Origin: Actinomucor elegans
Lineage: Eukaryota; Mucoromycota; Mucoromycetes; Mucorales; Mucoraceae
Assembly (NCBI GenBank): GCA_026027325.1
Contig: JAMSLZ010000003.1
Coordinates: 3,534,001-3,598,000, forward strand
Direction: 5' to 3'
DNA length: 64,000 nt
The notes beneath the pieces are model-generated. The model was not told the origin of the DNA. It ran no database searches and saw only the letters and a list, made by a program, of their open reading frames with translations. Positions within the stretch are counted from its first letter, which is position 1. The number at the start of each line of letters is the position of its first letter. Positions 44,632-59,418 of this stretch are shown piece after piece. The translations under genes and the position numbers were made by a program.

Positions 44632-45483
44632 CTATGATCTTGTAACTCGTGGTTGACGCGTTCTGCTGTATTTATTACGAGCAGGCATCTTACGTTTGTT
44701 GATTGTATCAGGTAAACGTGTATTTGAACTATGTTGTGAAGAGGTTGCTTGACGTCTAGCCCAATAATCTTGGATTGGTTTCATTGAGTCAAATGTATCA
44801 ACGGTTTGCCAAGTATTATATTTTGCTTGATCATCATAGCCAGCCCAGTGTACGTAATATTCATAATTACCAGGTGTACCTCTGTGATTTACAATTGATT
44901 GTACCTCATAGTGTTTGTCTTTAAGTTCGTTAGCAGAGCGTTTGTCGCCAGCTTGTATTAATCTGATCTGTTGTGTAGGAACATCTCGAGATAATAGTGA
45001 ACCTGCAAGATCCTCTAATATGTAACTACCATTCTTAGTGTAACCTTTAATAATCAATGGGCCGATCCATCTAGGTTGTACTTTAGCAGTTCGATTGACA
45101 TTAGTGATCATGACTTTAGAGTTAAGAGGGTACTTGTCACGAATGATCTTATGAGACTTTTCAAAACGTTCGTGATCAAATAATTGTGTTTCCTTGATTC
45201 TTTTAGCAAGAGCAGGAATAACCACTTCTTTAACATATTTTAACTTTTCATCAATGACTTTATGATCCGATTTCTCAATGTCTATAGTGGGTTTTACATT
45301 AGTGTAATCCTCAAATCCGTTTGGATGTCTAAAGAACATTGCTGAGAAGGGACGAGACTTATGAAGTCTAGCGTATTGAACGTTCATCGAATATTGCGTT
45401 ATATCCAAGTAGGTATCCCACGAATCAGCAGTAGCAGCGTTCGCAGTTAATGTCTTAATGATAGTTCTCTTGGAAATACCAAC
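44632..45483 (-). pseudogene. Ty3/gypsy integrase C-terminus with chromodomain
   Basis: Truncated pol end. It starts in the integrase core after the second Asp (TADSWDTYLDITQYSMN, then RPFSAMFFRHP), passes the GPY/F-like module (RWIGPLIIKGYTKNGSYIL) and ends with a chromodomain (YEVQSIVNHRG, EYYVHWAGYDDQ, WQTVDTFDS) and a basic tail. The upstream boundary at 45483/45484 is an abrupt junction with an LTR. About 250 residues remain. Chromodomain integrases are the mark of chromoviruses, which insert in H3K9-methylated chromatin. Confidence 0.85.
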
Positions 45484-45985
45484 TGTTGTGTACGTGGATA
45501 GAAAGAGGATTATAATAGAAGAACAGAAGAATAATATCAAAACTGTGGTAAGTCTTTTTATTTCCAAAATTAAATTTCGAATGATCTTTTTCTAATCAGC
45601 TAAGAGCTCGTCCTTTTATACTTTTCAGCTTGCTGCGGTTGACTAATGATATTATGGGTATACGTAAGCTAGTAGCTTGTTGACTGCGCGGCTCATAGTG
45701 ACTTGCTGATATTCCAAGATGATGATGATGGCCGACATACTGCGGTACCATAGCGGACTGTAAATAAAGGTAAGCATTTATATCTCGGCATAACACTCGA
45801 TTAGGAATTTGTCTTTTACTGCTATTTCTTGTTTTATAATAAAGCGTAATAATTACACAGTTGTTCATATTCTGGATTCGGGTAATAATGAGTTACATCT
45901 TCAAGCTATTCATAAAGGTGGGCATATGGCTACCAAAGCCTATACAACCTCTTCTTTACTGATATAATCATGAGCGTTTACAACA
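45484..45985 (-). repeat. LTR, divergent member of family A (502 bp)
   Basis: Starts TGTTGTGTACG and ends ATCATGAGCGTTTACAACA on the + strand. The last 40 bases match family A, the middle does not. Length is nearly the same. Flanking pentamers CCAAC and ATTGT differ, so it is not a clean solo LTR. Confidence 0.7.
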
Positions 45986-49186: not shown

Positions 49187-50922
49187 TGCTCCCCCACTAG
49201 AGTCAGTGCACACTGAGTCGACATTAGTAAAGAATAACAAGAAGTTGTATCTACGTGTTATGTTGTTTTTTGTTCTCCAGTGATTCAATTTTACCAGGTT
49301 TATTTTTACTGTAGTATGATATCAACTGCTGAGATACAATTTCCAAGGCATAACTGCGTGACAGTATATTATTATATTTTTTTGTTTAGTTTTGTATATT
49401 GACCGGGCAAGTGAGAACTTAATGTTTCTTTCACTGTTGCGTGTCATTACTTCCTGCTTCTTTTACTACGTCTAGTCTGTGATATGGGATGATTTAAATC
49501 AGTTACCTCACCAGTTCGCATTCTCTTATTATTCGACACATTATCAGATTTTTGATCAGTAATTGTGTTCTTAGTTGGTGATTTGGTATGAGTTTTCTTT
49601 TGGTAAGTGTCTTTCAACCTTTCCTTTGCTAATCGCTTTGAATGTCTAACCTTTTCCCAATACTTTTCGATAGTGACAGGAGACGAAAATGCATCAACTG
49701 AGATCCAGTCATTTTCTCGTTCACCATAGCCTACCCATTTTACAAGATATAACCTTTGGCCATTTTCATCTTTATGGTCTCGTATCTCCTCGACTTCAAA
49801 CAGTTCTTCTTCTATAGCAGATTCGTCAATAGATACGACTTTGAGTTCTGAGGGTACATATTCACGATGTAATAGTTCATTCGACTCGTCCTTCAATACA
49901 TAGGTGCCAGCACGTGTCTTTCGAACTACAGTATATGGCCCATCATATAGAGGCGATAACGATGTTGGTCGACCACCTTGTAATTTGACCATTACAGGAG
50001 TGTCTATTGGGATATCAATAATGCGATGCTTCTTGTTGAAATCCTCATTGTACTTTTCGACGATCTTACGTGTTCTCTCTTCAACAGCAGGAAATACAAC
50101 GTCAGCCATGTAATCAGCTCTCTTTACCAGTTCTTTTACTGATACAGGATTCTTTTTGCCCTTCATTTTAGGATCATGATTTGTGCTCAAGTCTACTTGT
50201 CTAGCAAACATTAACGAAAATGGTGTACTAGCAGTGCGATCTCTTACTTTGATATTGCAGCATAATTGTACAAGTCCTAGCCTTTCGTCCCAGTTACTTG
50301 TATCATTACCACAAAGTTTCCGCAGTGTGTTTTTCACCATCTGCACGGATCTTTCAGCAGCACCATTGGATTGAGGATAATAAGGTGTAGAGAATCGGTG
50401 CTGGATGCCCAAGGTATTGGTTAATGTATGCATCAATCCGTTCCTGAATTCCCTTCCGTTATCGCTACCAATGATGTCAGGTAATCCATAGTCAGCAAAG
50501 ATATTAATCAAAGCTTTAGCTACGGTATCACTTTGTTTGTTGGGTATAGGTCTAGTGATAATATATTTGGTGCAAATATCGACAAGTACTAGCCCATATA
50601 TGTTACCAGCCTCAGTTACAGGAAGTGGTCCAAAGAGATCCATTGTTACATGACTGAATGGTTCGAATGCAACTATAGATTTTTGTGGATTGAAACCCTT
50701 CTTGGATACATTGTGAAGTGCACATTCTTTGCAGCGTGAAAGGATATCTTTACAGTCAGCGTAGATGGTATTCCAATGTAACCCCTGGTAAGTGTGGATG
50801 TGCTTTACTACACTCTCAATACCGAAATGTCCAAGTGCATGTGCATCGTGGATGATTTGATCTCTCTCGTGGGCTGGAGGACAAGCATACTCTGTTCCTT
50901 TAGATTTGAAGTCTTTACTATT

Positions 50923-51322
50923 GAGCTACATTACATACCATTAATAATTAATATATATTATAATTATTTTTATATTATTAAATTAAAATTATATAGTTTT
51001 CTTTATTTATCAAGTTGTAAGTTGCTAAAAAACTTACGACGTGCTTTTTAATCAATTTTAAAAGAAAAAAATTGTCGCACAACAGGGTTTCGATCTGGTG
51101 TGAAATATTATGAAAAAAAAAAGTTTAATTGTATTGAAAAGTAATATAAAAGTTTAATCTTTATAAGTTTTGCATAATTATTGCAATTTCTTATTTTTAC
51201 GTTAATTACCAAACTTTCAAAAATTACAATAAAAAAGTGTTAAACAAAAAAAAATATAATTACAAAAAACACTATTTAATTTAAAAACTAATTTTTATTT
51301 TTTTTTATTTTTAACGTTGCTC
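50923..51322 (-). repeat. Terminal direct repeat of E1, transposase 3' side
   Basis: 400 bp, near identical to 52957-53357 and 57723-58122. Very AT-rich. Contains a hairpin, GTTGTAAGTT then AACTTACGAC (about 51012-51038). The transposase stop codon abuts its inner edge (51323-51325). Confidence 0.9.
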
Positions 51323-52772
51323 TTAGACATTGATAGAATCCCAATAATTCTTTAGAATATCTTTTGTTTGAAAGTCACTTTCTTTAATCCAACTGTTTAC
51401 TTGTTTTTTATAATTTCTCCATTTTACCTCATATTCATATTCATTATTTATTTTTCTATGTTGTATTATATATTGTATCTCATATACATTTTTATCAGTA
51501 CTAGTATTATTATCATCATTATCAATTTGCATTTTATTTTTAGTTAAGCTGATTTTAAAATTATTATCAGATAAAAGTTTATTTAGAAGATCATCCTGTA
51601 AACTTTTCATATTCATTATATTTTCTTTTTTATATACCGCCTTTATTGATTTAGTTTCGATATTAAAATCCTTAATAGTATCAAAAAAATCAAAATCTTT
51701 TTCCATCCATAGTTTATAATAAGATTTTTCTTCTATATTATTTTTTTCTACAAAGTTTTTGATATTAAATAAAACTAATGCTAATTTAATCTGAATGTTA
51801 TATGTTTTTTCTTTTGTAATTCTTGCATTGGCTTTGTAGCTAAATCTTTTGAATATATTTGAAAATTTTGCAAAAAAAGTTTCAATGGTACTTCTATATG
51901 ATCCTAATTGTTTATTAAAATTTAATTCATCAACATCTAAATCAATATTTTTTTCTTTTTTTATTGGAAAACAAAAGTTATTTTCTGTAATATGTAATCC
52001 TACATTATTATATTTTTTAAAATTTCATCTAATACATTTTCATATAATCCATCATAGCATAAACAATCTGTCAGTTTAAAAAATTTCATTAAATTTATAT
52101 TATTAATAAACATATTATCGTCATTATTAAATTTACATGGTAATGATTCTGAAACATAGATGATATATCCTGCTGAATCTATAATAAATTGGGTGTTTAA
52201 TGCATTTTTCTTTAATTTATAAGAATATAAATCTTTTTTATTTAAATCAATATCTTCAATTACTATTCTATTATGTCTTCCATCTAAAAGTAATGTACAA
52301 TGTTCAAAATTTTTAGGATTGTATAATTTACTATATAATAATCTAGTAATGCTGTTGCTAAAACAATAAAACATCGTATTATTAACCCAATTTTCTAAAA
52401 AATCTATATTATCAATAAAAACAGATTTATAAATTCTATAAAAAGAATCATTCTCATCATAAATTTTCATATCATTAATGGAACAACCATCTACTAATAA
52501 TTTTAAAATCAAAATTCCTTTTTCTACATTATATACTGGTGATGGCATTTTAATTTTACTACAAATTTCTGTTAAAAATACAAATATAGGAATTGCACCT
52601 AATAGTTCATATAATTCTTTTTTATATTTTGAATGTTAATAAAATTTCCTATTTTACTTCTATGATATTGTTTTTCAATATTAGATTTATATGTATTATC
52701 TAAAAATTTCCAATAATTTGTTTTAATCTCTTCATATTCATTTTCTAATAGTTCCTCTATTTCAATTGTCAT
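51323..52772 (-). pseudogene. DDE transposase (PIF/Harbinger-like) fused to a C-terminal chromodomain, E1 copy
   Basis: About 480 residues if two single-base slips are ignored (near 52630 in an A run, and near 52015 in a T run; E2 has the uninterrupted form at the second). N-terminus MTIEIEELLENEYEEIK, then an HTH-like stretch (ILILKLLVDGCSINDM). Catalytic-type residues: Asp in LLLDGRHNRI (about 163), Asp in KFNNDDNMF (about 218, the GS-x-HDS-x-F position), and Glu in RSTIETFF (about 297, the R-x2-VE position); also CLCYDGLYE where Harbinger proteins have GDKGY. This order and spacing fit the DDE_Tnp_4 group. The C-terminus is a chromodomain (YEIQYIIQHRK, YEVKWRNYKK, SWIKESDF, LKNYWDSI), about residues 425-480. 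The frame breaks make this copy inactive unless they are assembly errors in homopolymers. Confidence 0.8.
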
Positions 52773-52956
52773 AAGATGTTCTTATTTTTATTTATATAAT
52801 AATTCAATTTTTTAGAAAAAAGTAATTGAGTTTGAATTAATGTTACAGAAATGATTATAATTATAATTATTTTAATATTAAACATTCAAACATTTGGCAA
52901 AAAATAAAATAAAAATTGATACTATGAATCAAAAACAAAGAGCAATTTTTATATAA

Positions 52957-53357
52957 GAGCTACATTACATACCATTAATAATTAATATATATATTATAAT
53001 TATTTTTATATTATTAAATTAAAATTATATAGTTTTCTTTATTTATCAAGTTGTAAGTTGCTAAAAAACTTACGACGTGCTTTTTAATCAATTTTAAAAG
53101 AAAAAAATTGTCGCACAACAGGGTTTCGATCTGGTGTGAAATATTATGAAAAAAAAAAGTTTAATTGTATTGAAAAGTAATATAAAAGTTTAATCTTTAT
53201 AAGTTTTGCATAATTATTGCAATTTCTTATTTTTACGTTAATTACCAAACTTTCAAAAATTACAATAAAAAAGTGTTAAACAAAAAAAAATATAATTACA
53301 AAAAACACTATTTAATTTAAAAACTAATTTTTATTTTTTTTTATTTTAACGTTGCTC
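52957..53357 (-). repeat. Terminal direct repeat of E1, transposase 5' side
   Basis: 401 bp, near identical to 50923-51322. It lies upstream of the transposase start (52772) and so probably holds the promoter. Differs from its partner by one or two bases in homopolymers. Confidence 0.9.
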
Positions 53358-54474
53358 ATTAAGCTTCACCGCGAGGATGTTCAAACGTTTATCTTTCGAG
53401 TAGATCTTCTTTTTATGAATAAATCTATCTTTGTCATTGTTAGATGAAGCTCTTCTTAGTAAGATGCATTTCTCTAATCGTTTAATATTGCGATCCTGCT
53501 CCCCCTCCAGCGTTTGATCTTCAATAATAGGAGGGTAAACGCGAGATAGTGCATCAGGTAGTTTATTGGCAATGCCTTTTAAGTGAACTACATTCAGATT
53601 GAATTGTCCAATAACATCCATATAAGATTGTAATGTACTGTTCAACGTGGTGGACGTGAACATGTAAGTAAGAGCCATATGATCAGTGAGCACCTCGATA
53701 GGTAATGGATGCCCCCATAGCAAAGGTCTAAATCTGATCAATCCGAATACAATTGCAGCAGTTTCGCGTCTATTGGTGGACCAATTGCGCTCAGCCGAAT
53801 TGAGAGACTTGCTAATGAAAGCAATGTGTACAGTTCTATTAAATTCATCTCTTTGAGTGAGTGCACAAGCTATCCCATATACAGATGCGTCTGTCTCCAG
53901 ATAAAATTTCTTGGATAGATCAGGCTGGTGAAGCACGGCATTAGACACAAGAATCTGTTTAATCCGATTGAATCGATCAGTATGTAAAGACGTCCATTTG
54001 GTTTGTACATCCTTATCATTACGTAGTTGATCTAAAGGTGCAGCTACTTTACTAAGCATAGGACAGTAATCCCTTAAATGAGAAATCACACCCATAATAC
54101 TTCGTACTTGTGCAGCGTTTTTAGGAATTGGCCATTTATCAATGTTTGAAAGTCGTCTGTGATCGATCTTTGTAATGCCAGGTCCAACAATAAAGCCCAA
54201 TAAATATAAAGCCGTTCGAAACCATGTGCATTTGTCGGGATTGATCTTCAAATTTACAGAAGTCAATCTTTCGAGCACTGTGTTTATCAATTTAATATGT
54301 TCTTCTATCGTTTCACTATAGAGTACACAATCATCTACATATGTTTCTACTCCTTCTAAGTCTCCCAAGAGGATGTTCATGACCCTGCAGTATTGGCTTG
54401 TAAGAAAGCTTAATCCGAAGGGCGCGTGGCACCATTTGTAGTTTATATGATTATAAGAGAATGATAATACTTCT

Positions 54475-54980
54475 TGTTGTAAAGGTGGTAGATAAAGATT
54501 TTGGAAGATAGAAATACTTTTAAAACTGTGGATAGTTTTTTATTAGAGATCAAGAATTGATTAACTGGTCAAAAGGTGATAAAACGCATCTCTTATATAC
54601 TTTTTCTCGGTCGGTACTTGATTCTAAATTCATATTACGATTTGCCAGGAACAAGGTTGGACTGCGTATAAAGAAGACCAGGGATAATAACCAAATGAGC
54701 GGACCAAGATTAGCGGCGAGGAGTGTCGGGATCAATATATCCAAAGGTAATAGTATTGAATGTAATATTTGGTGTGAGAGATAGTATTTATCAATTAGCG
54801 TCTACTTGCTCAGAGTGATATATAAATAAAGATATTTTAACATAATCAAATACAGTCATTTACATTCTGGTTCTTGGTAATAATGCTTTATACACTTCTG
54901 CAGCTATATATAAGGATATCTATACGATTTTCTATCTGTACAGTATTCTCTTATTAATATAATTATGAGCGTTTACAACA
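54475..54980 (-). repeat. 3' LTR, family A (506 bp)
   Basis: TGTTGTAAAGG to GCGTTTACAACA on the + strand. On the minus strand it is preceded by GGTGGAGGATAA (54981-54992), a polypurine tract, so it is the 3' LTR of the gypsy copy at 55164-57722. It cuts the RT of the neighbouring gypsy copy. Confidence 0.9.
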
Positions 54981-55163: not shown

Positions 55164-57722
55164 TTATTCTATCTTTCTTTTCTTGTTTGAACGTCTATTC
55201 AGTATTCTCTCTTCTCTACTCGTAGTGGCTGCAATATTTGCTCTTTTGTTTTTCGACATCTCGATCGCTACATTTGACATCTCATTCCCATTGCATTTAG
55301 GAATCTTGGAAATTCCAACTTTTTTGCGTCTGTTAGGTTCAGAGTTTTGAATTGACTGTTCGACTCTAGTTTGCTCTAAACGTCGTAATTCTCTTTGCTT
55401 ATTCCAGTACCGTTGAATGATAGTTGGATCGGTGAAATCACTTGCTTTTTGCCAAGTATTTTCTTTCTCAGAATAACCTTTCCACTTAATCAAGTATTCT
55501 CGATGACCTTCTTCACCTCGATGATCACGGATACCTTCGACTTCGTAGTATTCTTCTTCGATACTAGACTCATCCAGGGTAACTACTTTCAATTCCGACG
55601 GTACATAGTTTCGGGATAATAATTCATTCTGTTCATCCTTTAGTTCATACGATCCACCAGTATTTCTTCGAACAACAGTGTAAGGTCCCTCATAAATCGG
55701 AGCTAACTTACTAGATCGATTCTGTAATCTGATCATGACATGCGTTCCAACTGGAATGTCGACAAGAACACTCTTTTGATTGAACTTTTTGTTATATTCC
55801 TCATTTATCTTCTGAGTTCTTTCGAGGATGGCTGGGAATACGATCTTATCCATGTAATCTACGCGTTCTTCCAACTCTCGCATGGTCATAGACTCAATGG
55901 GTAGTTTGAACTTCTTCTCGTTCCCGTAGTCATCAGGTAAGTTGACTCTACGTGCAAACATCAAGGAGAAGGGAGAACTCATAGTTTTTGCTTTAATGTG
56001 TCGGTTCATGCAGAGCTGTATGATAGGAAGATAATACGCCCAACTATGACTGTCTGACTTCATCATTTTTCTTAACGTGTTAGTTGCGGTACGAACTGCA
56101 TTTTCCGCTGCTCCATTTGCTCGAGGATGATATGGCGTAGTGTATCTTCTATCAATTCCTAGGTTCTTCGAAATACTGTTCATCACAGCATTCTTGAACT
56201 CTAGACCATTATCAGACTGGCAAATACGTGGAACACCAAAATCACCATAGACTTTGACCAACTCTTTTGCAACAGTATCGGATTGTTTGTTCTTCAGAGG
56301 TCTGAGAATAACGAATTTCGAACAAATATCTGTTATAACCAACATGTAAACATATCCTTCTTCAGTTACGTCAAAAGGTCCAGCCAAGTCGATAGCAATA
56401 TGATCAAATGGTCGGTTGGCTACAACATTAGATAATGGGTGATAACCTCTCTTACTGATGTTGTGCTTTTGACATTCAACACACGAACTAACAATGTCTT
56501 TTGCTTCTGCGTAGATATTCGCCCAATGGAGACCTTGTGAATGTAAATCTCGCACAATTGCTTGCGATCCAAAGTGTCCAAATGCATGCGCTTCTTTCAA
56601 CAGAGCATCTCTCTCTTCTTCAGGAGGAGTCATATAGTCAGTCAGCTCATCTTTTCTTTCAACTAGTTTAGTCGCGAGTACGTTAATCGTTTTATCTCGG
56701 CTAAATCGCTTTTTTCTAATGATGGCTTTCTTTTTAGGGCTTCGTCTGATGATTTTGCTCGTAACACTATCCTCCACCAGTTTGTTTTCATCTTCTAAAG
56801 GTGAATACAAACGGCTCAGAATATCAGGCAATTTGTTCAATATACCGGGGATGTGCACTACATCAAAATCAAAATCCAGAAGAGTCTCGATCCATCCAAT
56901 TAACATGGGATTTGCGATCTTTTGCGTATGTAAGTATACTAGTGCCTTGTGATCTGTAAATACAGTGAACTTTTTGCCCCATATATACTTGCGAAACTTC
57001 AGTAATGCTAACACGACTGCATACAATTCTCTTTTAGTAGTGCTCCAACGGCGTTGTGAAGGTGACAAGGAGCTCGATACAAATCCTATGTAAAGATCTT
57101 GGCCGGCCTCATTCTTTTGAAACAACACTGCCGCGACACCATAAAGTGATGCGTCTGTAGCTACGTAAAACTGTTTTGACAAATCCGGATAATGCAGCAT
57201 CATCTTCGACTGCAAAATCTCTTTGATAGTTTCAAAGCTCTTAGTGTGACGATCGGTCCACAGCTCTTCCACATTCTCTGCATTCACTAAACTGGTGAGT
57301 GGTTCTGCTACTCTGGAAATCATCGGAACGAATTCTCTCAGGTAATTGACCAAACCCATAAATTGCTGGATGTGTTTCTTATTTTTATTTGGAAGTGGCC
57401 ACTTTGAAACATTGGTAAGTTTTGATTGATCCACACGAACTCCTGAAGCGTCCACTACAAATCCCAACATACGAACTGAATGTTGAAACCATGAACACTT
57501 GGATTCTTTCAGGATTAAATTTGCGGAATTTAATCTGTCAATCACAAACTTTACATCTTTTGCATGCTGTTCGATACTTTCACTGGCAACAATACAGTCA
57601 TCCACGAAGTTCTGAACGCAATCAATACCTTCAAACAAGGTTGCCATGACCTTTTGAAATTGCGAGGTTAGCATTTTCACTCCAAAGCACGCTTTTTGAA
57701 AGGAAAAGCCATTGCCATTATA
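55164..57722 (-). CDS. Ty3/gypsy chromovirus pol, 5' truncated by element E2
   Basis: About 850 residues open to the stop at 55164. In order: RT second half (KACFGVKMLTSQFQKVM, FVDDCIVAS), RNase H-like domain (FYVATDASLYGVAAVLF, then VFTDHKALVYL), integrase zinc finger (HAFGHFGSQA, SCVECQKHN), integrase core (DLAGPFD, ITDICSKFV, QSDNGLEF, Glu in NGAAENAVR), GPY/F module (LAPIYEGPYTVVRR) and chromodomain (YEVEGIRDHRGE, YLIKWKGYSEKENTW). The frame is broken only by E2 at 57723, where RT begins abruptly. Gag, protease and the RT fingers are missing from the window. Presence of all catalytic residues in the remaining part implies recent activity of the family. Confidence 0.93.
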   Translation of the reverse strand, partial: YNGNGFSFQKACFGVKMLTSQFQKVMATLFEGIDCVQNFVDDCIVASESIEQHAKDVKFVIDRLNSANLILKESKCSWFQHSVRMLGFVVDASGVRVDQSKLTNVSKWPLPNKNKKHIQQFMGLVNYLREFVPMISRVAEPLTSLVNAENVEELWTDRHTKSFETIKEILQSKMMLHYPDLSKQFYVATDASLYGVAAVLFQKNEAGQDLYIGFVSSSLSPSQRRWSTTKRELYAVVLALLKFRKYIWGKKFTVFTDHKALVYLHTQKIANPMLIGWIETLLDFDFDVVHIPGILNKLPDILSRLYSPLEDENKLVEDSVTSKIIRRSPKKKAIIRKKRFSRDKTINVLATKLVERKDELTDYMTPPEEERDALLKEAHAFGHFGSQAIVRDLHSQGLHWANIYAEAKDIVSSCVECQKHNISKRGYHPLSNVVANRPFDHIAIDLAGPFDVTEEGYVYMLVITDICSKFVILRPLKNKQSDTVAKELVKVYGDFGVPRICQSDNGLEFKNAVMNSISKNLGIDRRYTTPYHPRANGAAENAVRTATNTLRKMMKSDSHSWAYYLPIIQLCMNRHIKAKTMSSPFSLMFARRVNLPDDYGNEKKFKLPIESMTMRELEERVDYMDKIVFPAILERTQKINEEYNKKFNQKSVLVDIPVGTHVMIRLQNRSSKLAPIYEGPYTVVRRNTGGSYELKDEQNELLSRNYVPSELKVVTLDESSIEEEYYEVEGIRDHRGEEGHREYLIKWKGYSEKENTWQKASDFTDPTIIQRYWNKQRELRRLEQTRVEQSIQNSEPNRRKKVGISKIPKCNGNEMSNVAIEMSKNKRANIAATTSREERILNRRSNKKRKIE

Positions 57723-59185
57723 GAGCTACATTACATATCATTAATAATTAATATATATATTATAATTATTTTCATATTATTAAATTAAAATTATATAGCT
57801 TTCTTTATTTATCAAGTTGTAAGTTGCTAAAAAACTTACGGCGTGCTTTTTAATCAATTTTAAAAGAAAAAAATTGTCGCACAACAGGGTTTCGATCTGG
57901 TGTGAAATATTATGAAAAAAAAAAGTTTAATTGTATTGAAAAGTAATATAAAAGTTTAATCTTTATAAGTTTTGCATAATTATTGCAATTTCTTATTTTT
58001 ACGTTAATTACCAAACTTTCAAAAATTACAATAAAAAAGTGTTAAACAAAAAAAAATATAATTACAAAAAACACTATTTAATTTAAAAACTAATTTTTAT
58101 TTTTTTTATTTTTAACGTTGCTCTTAGACATTGATAGAATCCCAATAATTCTTTAGAATATCTTTTGTTTGAAAGTCACTTTCTTTAATCCAACTGTTTA
58201 CTTGTTTTTTATAATTTCTCCATTTTACCTCATATTCATATTCATTATTTATTTTTCTATGTTGTATTATATATTGTATCTCATATACATTTTTATCAGT
58301 ACTAGTATTATTATCATCATTATCAATTTGCATTTTATTTTTAGTTAAGCTGATTTTAAAATTATTATCAGATAAAAGTTTATTTAGAAGATCATCCTGT
58401 AAACTTTTCATATTCATTATATTTTCTTTTTTATATACCGCCTTTATTGATTTAGTTTCGATATTAAAATCCTTAATAGTATCAAAAAAATCAAAATCTT
58501 TTTCCATCCATAGTTTATAATAAGATTTTTCTTCTATATTATTATTTTCTACAAAGTTTTTGATATTAAATAAAACTAATGCTAATTTAATCTGAATGTT
58601 ATATGTTTTTTCTTTTGTAATTCTTGCATTGGCTTTGTAGCTAAATCTTTTGAATATATTTGAAAATTTTGCAAAAAAAGTTTCAATGGTACTTCTATAT
58701 GATCCTAATTGTTTATTAAAATTTAATTCATCAACATCTAAATCAATATTTTTTTCTTTTTTATTGGAAAACAAAAGTTATTTTCTGTAATATGTAATCC
58801 TACATTATTATATTTTTTTAAAATTTCATCTAATACATTTTCATACAATCCATCATAGCATAAACAATCTGTTAGTTTAAAAAATTTCATTAAATTTATA
58901 TTATTAATAAACATATTATCGTCATTATTAAATTTACACGGTAATGATTCTGAAACATAGATGATATATCCTGCTGAATCTATAATAAATTGGGTGTTTA
59001 ATGCATTTTTCTTTAATTTATAAGAATATAAATCTTTTTTATTTAAATCAATATCTTCAATTACTATTCTATTATGTCTTCCATCTAAAAGTAATGTACA
59101 ATGTTCAAAATTTTTAGGATTGTATAATTTACTATATAATAATCTAGTAATGCTGTTGCTAAAACAATAAAACATCGTATTATTA
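57723..59185 (-). mobile_element. Element E2: second copy of the chromodomain transposon, truncated
   Basis: Terminal repeat 57723-58122 followed by a transposase frame nearly identical to E1 (58123-59185). The copy ends at 59185 where element F begins, so the first 150 or so codons and the other terminal repeat are missing. The transposase has one slip near 58760 in a T run, a position that is intact in E1, while E2 is intact at the E1 slip near 52015. It is inserted in the RT of the gypsy copy at 55164-57722. Confidence 0.85.
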
Positions 59186-59418
59186 AGAGGGATATCTTTT
59201 TTTATATGAATTTAATATATATATTAGTAGAAAACATAAATATAATGTTGTTTTTTCATGCATAATGGAACAGTTGCCTTCTTGATAATGTTTATTATAC
59301 AGAATAATCATTTTAATTTATAAAAAAGGTTATAAAGATATAAAAACTATGGATATATTAAAAAGTTTAAATATATATAGAAAAGATAAAAATGATGTAA
59401 TGTCTGTATATATCCGTC
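59186..59418 (+). repeat. Left terminal direct repeat of F (233 bp)
   Basis: Starts AGAGGGATATC, ends TATATCCGTC. Matches 61197-61429 base for base by eye and is a divergent, inverted relative of the solo element at 62612-62845 (shared GCATAATGGAACAGTTGCC-like core). Confidence 0.88.

Follow-up and report, generated by a model that had tools for sequence, protein, structure and literature searches.

The insertion described here, in a window of 64,000 nucleotides of Actinomucor elegans DNA (contig JAMSLZ010000003.1), is probably a PHIS-type DNA transposon with a composite-like R-INT-R organisation, in which two direct repeats (R) enclose an internal region (INT) encoding a DDE transposase-chromodomain protein, and which moves and is targeted as proposed below.

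Anatomy of the insertion

A complete single insertion on the minus strand occupies positions 50923-53357 of the window and interrupts the pol gene of a Ty3/gypsy chromovirus. The original prediction, of a PIF/Harbinger-type transposase fused to a chromodomain, was placed at coordinates that prove to be exactly those of the whole insertion, both direct repeats included; the repeats of about 400 bp, the 3-bp duplication and the repeat design common to the families were missing from it. The features of the region are as follows.

49447-50925, chromovirus receiving the insertion, integrase with chromodomain
50920..50922, left copy of the target-site duplication, ATT (based on an empty-site pattern with a single ATT)
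50923..51322, minus strand, direct repeat R on the 3' side of the ORF, 400 bp; read on the minus strand, outer end CTC and inner end GAG
51323..52956, minus strand, internal region INT, 1634 bp; the ORF stop TAA (51323-51325) abuts R
51323..52772, minus strand, transposase ORF, in three frameshifted pieces in the window copy; ATG at 52770-52772
51338..51484, minus strand, chromodomain, Pfam PF00385, 28.6 bits; cage Y431, W452 and Y455 (P0001 numbering) from the alignment with HP1-type chains
51881..51883, minus strand, codon of likely triad residue E298 (RSTIETF), invariant in 12/12 aligned proteins
52051..52053, minus strand, codon of likely triad residue D241 (CYDGLYEN), invariant in 12/12
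52282..52284, minus strand, codon of likely triad residue D164 (LLLDGRHN), invariant in 12/12
52957..53357, minus strand, direct repeat R on the 5' side of the ORF, 401 bp; read on the minus strand, outer end GAG and inner end CTC
53346-54539, chromovirus receiving the insertion, RT/RNase H
53358..53360, right copy of the target-site duplication, ATT
57723..59186, minus strand, second family A copy (L023), truncated: one R and the 3' portion of INT are left, with no 5' R

The empty site, represented by a 43-base join of the two flanks with one ATT, occurs 26 times without mismatch in this genome, and the reversed control pattern does not occur. Since 40 two-R copies, from six families, show the unit as well, chance or artefact was rejected as its origin. 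Two more minus-strand Ty3/gypsy-like frames, at 44632-45591 and 55164-57725, carry chromodomain-like sequence at their ends, and the end of the window is a nest of such elements.

The transposase

The ORF of the window copy is divided into three overlapping minus-strand pieces (52599-52781, 52000-52635 and 51323-52024). Other copies read the same protein in one frame, in agreement with the earlier description of a single frame with slips. A search of the genome with the protein scored 150 of 381 candidates and gave at least 152 matches, and one protein from each of 11 related families, A to K, was examined (P0001-P0011). The 486-codon ORF of family A, to which the window copy belongs, is open in 11 of the 21 copies counted by a pattern inside INT.

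Pfam profiles of the intact protein uphold the predicted fusion of a Harbinger-type DDE transposase to a chromodomain, and the duplication, the empty sites and the intact copies identify a real transposon. DDE_Tnp_4 scored 20.6 and 19.5 bits on the window pieces alone, under the Pfam cut-off of 24.8, and 37.7 bits (E 2e-9) on the intact copy P0001. The cut-off was exceeded in 10 of the 11 families, family E reaching 24.3 bits.

The catalytic triad is likely to be D164/D241/E298, judging from an alignment of the 11 family proteins with a canonical Harbinger protein of the same genome (L090; DDE_Tnp_4 107.3 bits). Two of the three acidic motifs originally proposed, LLLDGRHN and RSTIETF, hold triad-type residues. 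The middle one, NNDDNMF, has a D218 that all 11 related proteins keep and the canonical Harbinger lacks, and the second triad position falls instead to D241 in CYDGLYEN, which aligns with ILADSAYPL of that protein. The predicted structure had a mean pLDDT of 69.8 with six input sequences and 77.8 with eleven; in the eleven-sequence model D164 sits on a strand, E298 on a helix, and D241 at a point between a strand and a helix, an arrangement that fits the description of the PHIS superfamily in the excerpted text of PMC4482050. The helix-turn-helix of the original prediction was not recovered: no HTH family matched P0001-P0011 at E up to 1, and in that part of the protein the models show no more than helices.

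Structure searches with Foldseek gave chromodomains only, and nothing for the DDE part, among the best 50 of 270 and of 331 matches (E up to 10); none of the matches listed reached E ≤ 0.001. NCBIfam gave weak IS5-family matches in 6 of the 11 proteins (best E 0.0015). No relative was found among 42 pattern matches in viral contigs.

Other coding capacity was assessed on one copy per family. No second coding-strand ORF of 100 aa was present in elements A, C, D, E and F, and no ORF for a His-Me finger endonuclease in A-F. Upstream of its transposase, family B alone among A-F has a coding-strand ORF of 122 aa (L031:902-1267), for which Pfam, PHROGs and PDB held nothing credible.

The chromodomain

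The C-terminal chromodomain was confirmed at 28.6 bits in the window piece and 25.9 bits in intact P0001 (E 9.1e-6; Chromo cut-off 25.1). PF00385 exceeded its cut-off in 10 of the 11 families, family K being without it. When aligned with HP1-type chains, the positions of the aromatic cage are kept in the chromodomain-bearing families, with Phe at the third in family F. The HP1 chain 1kna was matched by profile at E 4.9e-10, and 1kna_A, HP1 with an H3K9me2 peptide, superposes in Foldseek with an rmsd of 1.0-1.1 (E 0.0088-0.011).

The element chromodomains are 29-41% identical to that of the chromovirus integrase at 49447-50925, and 39-49% identical to a second one within the window, that of the chromovirus integrase at 55398-55547; sequence identity therefore makes capture from a chromovirus plausible.

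Family K (L074, C21:329700-333000) has direct repeats around a 423-aa transposase without a chromodomain. Family J (L072 and L073), a 2151-bp element, combines a chromodomain with short inverted ends and, judged by eye, 3-bp duplications at both copies; no long repeats were found in it. The chromodomain and the long direct repeats are thus separable traits.

The direct-repeat design across families

All 40 two-R copies that were fetched, from families A to F, have the structure R-INT-R with the repeats in direct orientation. The size of R is about 401, 221, 239, 220, 223 and 292 bp in A to F respectively, 232 bp in H and 288 bp in K. The design is common to 8 of the 11 related families (A-F, H and K), and in each of the eight R starts with GA and ends with TC (mostly GAG..CTC), forming imperfect inverted ends. 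Family G, which has a 211-bp inverted pair and a further copy in direct orientation, about 70 bp long, and family I, which extends past the fetched stretch, were left out of this count. A tree, drawn open, splits A-F from G-K with support 85/98.

In several families the three INT bases adjoining each repeat are inverted complements of one another (TTA..TAA in A, C and K, TAA..TTA in D, TAG..CTA in E) and add 3 bp to the inverted ends of R; in the window they lie at 51323-51325 and 52954-52956. They are not fully present in families B, F and H.

An exact 3-bp duplication surrounds 37 of the 40 R-INT-R copies of families A-F (exceptions L009, L018 and L033), as well as 3/3 copies of family H and 1/1 of family K. 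The duplication is degenerate and not TWA, with A at position 1 in 21/37 and T at position 3 in 23/37. Copies L018 and L028 have a common left flank, and L039 and L040 have both flanks in common, so these are not independent events. Judged by their sequences, the chromodomain-transposase families are young, because the nine INT of family B that were compared (of 41 in the genome) are all identical over 2062 bp.

Paired direct repeats that are nearly identical within a copy, together with solo repeats and a dimer (below) in a genome rich in chromoviruses, are what would be expected of a small LTR retrotransposon of TRIM- or LARD-like kind, copied by a chromovirus reverse transcriptase, that had captured a Harbinger transposase gene, so that R would be true LTRs. 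We consider this very improbable. The repeats end in GA..TC rather than TG..CA, the target duplication is 3 bp, and a transposase of this kind occurs in family J without long repeats. In five of the six families no primer-binding-like TGG follows the 5' R immediately, family F having TGGTGC, and no purine tract precedes the 3' R (6, 8, 9, 5, 9 and 8 purines of 15 in A to F). Tests for the marks of an LTR retroelement, RT, PBS, PPT and TG..CA ends, gave this identity no support.

Solo repeats, a dimer and concerted change

The R pattern of family A occurs 99 times in the genome (88 exact), with 41 R adjoining INT and 58 not. The 58 include one at C14:348, which follows an ORF piece at a contig start, and eleven with one or two mismatches. 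Ten of these eleven are on the + strand and most lie no more than about 30 kb from a contig start (for example C10:1659, C24:1659, C22:3031, C15:1849 and C26:2020), as if they belonged to a subtelomeric repeat. In family B, 98 R and 41 INT were counted; 37 of its INT have R on both sides and 4 on one side, and 21 R are solo. A set of 28 solo R of family A was taken from two lists, each holding the best 40 of 108 candidates, and among these listed candidates 27 of the 28 showed an exact duplication. Within each of the solo pairs L065/L081 and L060/L088 the flanking letters are identical. A dimer, R-INT-R-INT-R, is present at C22:9970-14753, flanked by AGT/AGT.

Family A has 20 two-R copies, which fall into two lineages of ten each; across them four R and four INT substitutions travel together (permutation p 5e-5). 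The four R substitutions that tell the lineages apart are mirrored between the two R of every one of these copies (one cell being a gap); beyond these, the window copy is the only one whose two R differ from each other, with two differences in an A-rich run. Drift would not mirror four substitutions, which suggests that one R was at times copied over the other, or that both were made from one; two R-homogenising events, in ancestors of the two lineages, would be enough. Family B gives no signal of concerted change, because only two of its copies differ, by one private difference each.

The solos also differ from the INT-linked repeats in type. Haplotype CGGG was found in 11 of the 28 listed family A solos and in none of the 41 R of INT-bearing copies, while the TAAG type was found in 20 of those 41 and in none of the listed solos. 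These haplotypes may be read as R moving or surviving alone; alternatively, the solos would descend from full copies since lost, and solo R can also arise by recombination within full copies.

On a rival account only the whole R-INT-R moves, with R immobile alone and the solos and dimers by-products of homologous recombination. Recombination between two R leaves solos with the original duplication, which matches the data, and the dimer is compatible with unequal crossing-over. The haplotype difference in both directions argues against this account, and so does the excess in family A of 58 R without a neighbouring INT over 21 INT; full copies since lost could still account for these findings. 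On balance we regard an immobile R as a real possibility, somewhat doubtful.

Genomic distribution

The distribution of 114 copies, chosen by hand from at least 131 DDE_Tnp_4 matches (17, canonical ones and fragments, were omitted), was compared with that of 74 of at least 153 mariner-type matches, those whose frames are free of stops over about 200 aa or more. Chromoviruses were taken as long-frame chromodomain matches among those listed, one 1377-codon frame being omitted, and distances to contig ends cover 32.9 of 36.5 Mb. Among the matches listed, half (50%) of the 114 copies lay within 20 kb of a chromovirus, compared with 27% of the 74 mariner-type copies and 7% of random positions; within 60 kb of a contig end the corresponding values were 35%, 10% and 7%. 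This proximity is compatible with a bias towards heterochromatin, without proving it; on the reading proposed below, the chromodomain would steer insertion there.

Copy clustering can arise without targeting, and the same pattern could result from selective removal of insertions elsewhere, the chromodomain having no part in steering. The mariner-type copies are clustered too, with a median neighbour distance of 18.4 kb (14.9 kb for the 114 copies), and two of the 114 belong to family K, which has no chromodomain. The conserved cage positions of the chromodomain families, including the Phe of family F, and the excess over mariner-type copies near both chromoviruses and contig ends speak against selection alone, which we judge a tenable account that is more apt to be wrong than right.

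Comparison with known systems

The closest published architecture found is that of the KolobokP DNA transposons of animals, LTDR-INT-LTDR (Kojima and Bao 2022, PMC9587614), a design that the excerpted text of that paper describes as unlike any other DNA transposon. According to this text, KolobokP and the present element both have long direct repeats, with short inverted ends of their own, around a transposase gene, and both show solos, multimers and short target duplications. KolobokP encodes a Kolobok transposase and a His-Me homing endonuclease, whereas the present element encodes a Harbinger-type (DDE_Tnp_4) transposase with a chromodomain and no recognised nuclease gene. In bacterial composite transposons, as discussed in the same excerpts, two mobile repeats likewise move a central segment as one; here, in contrast, the transposase is central and the repeats encode nothing recognised.

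PHIS elements, as described in the excerpts of PMC4482050, agree with the present element in DDE_Tnp_4, the putative triad, the order of strands and helices and the 3-bp duplications. PIF/Harbinger relatives, by the same source, have inverted ends and mostly a second ORF of Myb/SANT type, whereas the present element is bounded by direct repeats and has a single main ORF, which includes a chromodomain; no Myb/SANT ORF was found in one copy of each of families A-F. The long direct repeats set the element apart from ordinary Harbinger elements. The canonical duplication is TWA/TNA; the one found here has the same 3 bp but is degenerate. In Pangu, of the PHIS group, it is ANT, and here A first and T last are commonest while many sites depart from this. 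Two copies on C8 (L090 and L091) are of the canonical Harbinger type: besides a DDE ORF they have a second ORF, of 136 aa, on the opposite strand.

Chromoviruses (Ty3/gypsy) share with the element paired direct repeats and a DDE enzyme with a C-terminal chromodomain. The element differs from them in lacking a reverse transcriptase and PBS/PPT, in its 3-bp duplication and in its transposase family. HarbingerS of oomycetes is also a Harbinger lineage with a chromatin-related part, although this is a SET methyltransferase and not a chromodomain, and long direct repeats are unmentioned in the excerpts of PMC12730594. In the main text of the PHIS survey PMC4482050, neither 'chromo' nor 'direct repeat' occurs as a word start. 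No Harbinger with a chromodomain or long direct repeats was found in the open-licence papers searched; an earlier description is possible.

Proposed mechanism

The transposase would recognise the R ends (GAG.../...CTC) and cut the two outermost. The whole R-INT-R, observed as a unit with its duplication, would then enter a loosely AT-rich 3-bp site. R alone is probably movable as a short non-autonomous element, because each R carries both transposon ends. Recombination between R copies would yield the solos, the dimer and the like R pairs that are observed. The chromodomain, probably derived from a chromovirus integrase, would read a methyl-lysine mark and bias insertion towards heterochromatin. 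Points against this reading are the three of 40 copies without an exact duplication, the separability of chromodomain and long repeats in families J and K, and the lack of any match for the DDE part among the Foldseek matches listed.

A more far-reaching proposal, which we put forward tentatively as having a little less than an even chance, is that the element belongs to a second lineage of composite-like DNA transposons, one that arose independently of KolobokP and is unrelated to it. In this lineage both R-INT-R and R alone would be moved by a Harbinger transposase, a circular or recombination intermediate would keep the repeats alike with no dedicated nuclease involved, and a chromovirus chromodomain would home the element to heterochromatin. 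If true, the element would have converged on LTR retrotransposons both in its ends and in its targeting.

Significance

Long direct repeats are usually taken as the mark of a retroelement, and the anatomy of this element indicates movement as DNA. Structure-based finders may misfile such elements as LTR elements. A second direct-repeat case with another transposase would make the design a recurrent solution and not a curiosity. One genome holds both direct-repeat and short-inverted-end designs, with and without the chromodomain, as well as intact proteins. These coexisting designs and intact proteins, in young families, make two questions testable: how a DNA element keeps its direct repeats alike, and whether chromodomains are able to direct cut-and-paste enzymes.
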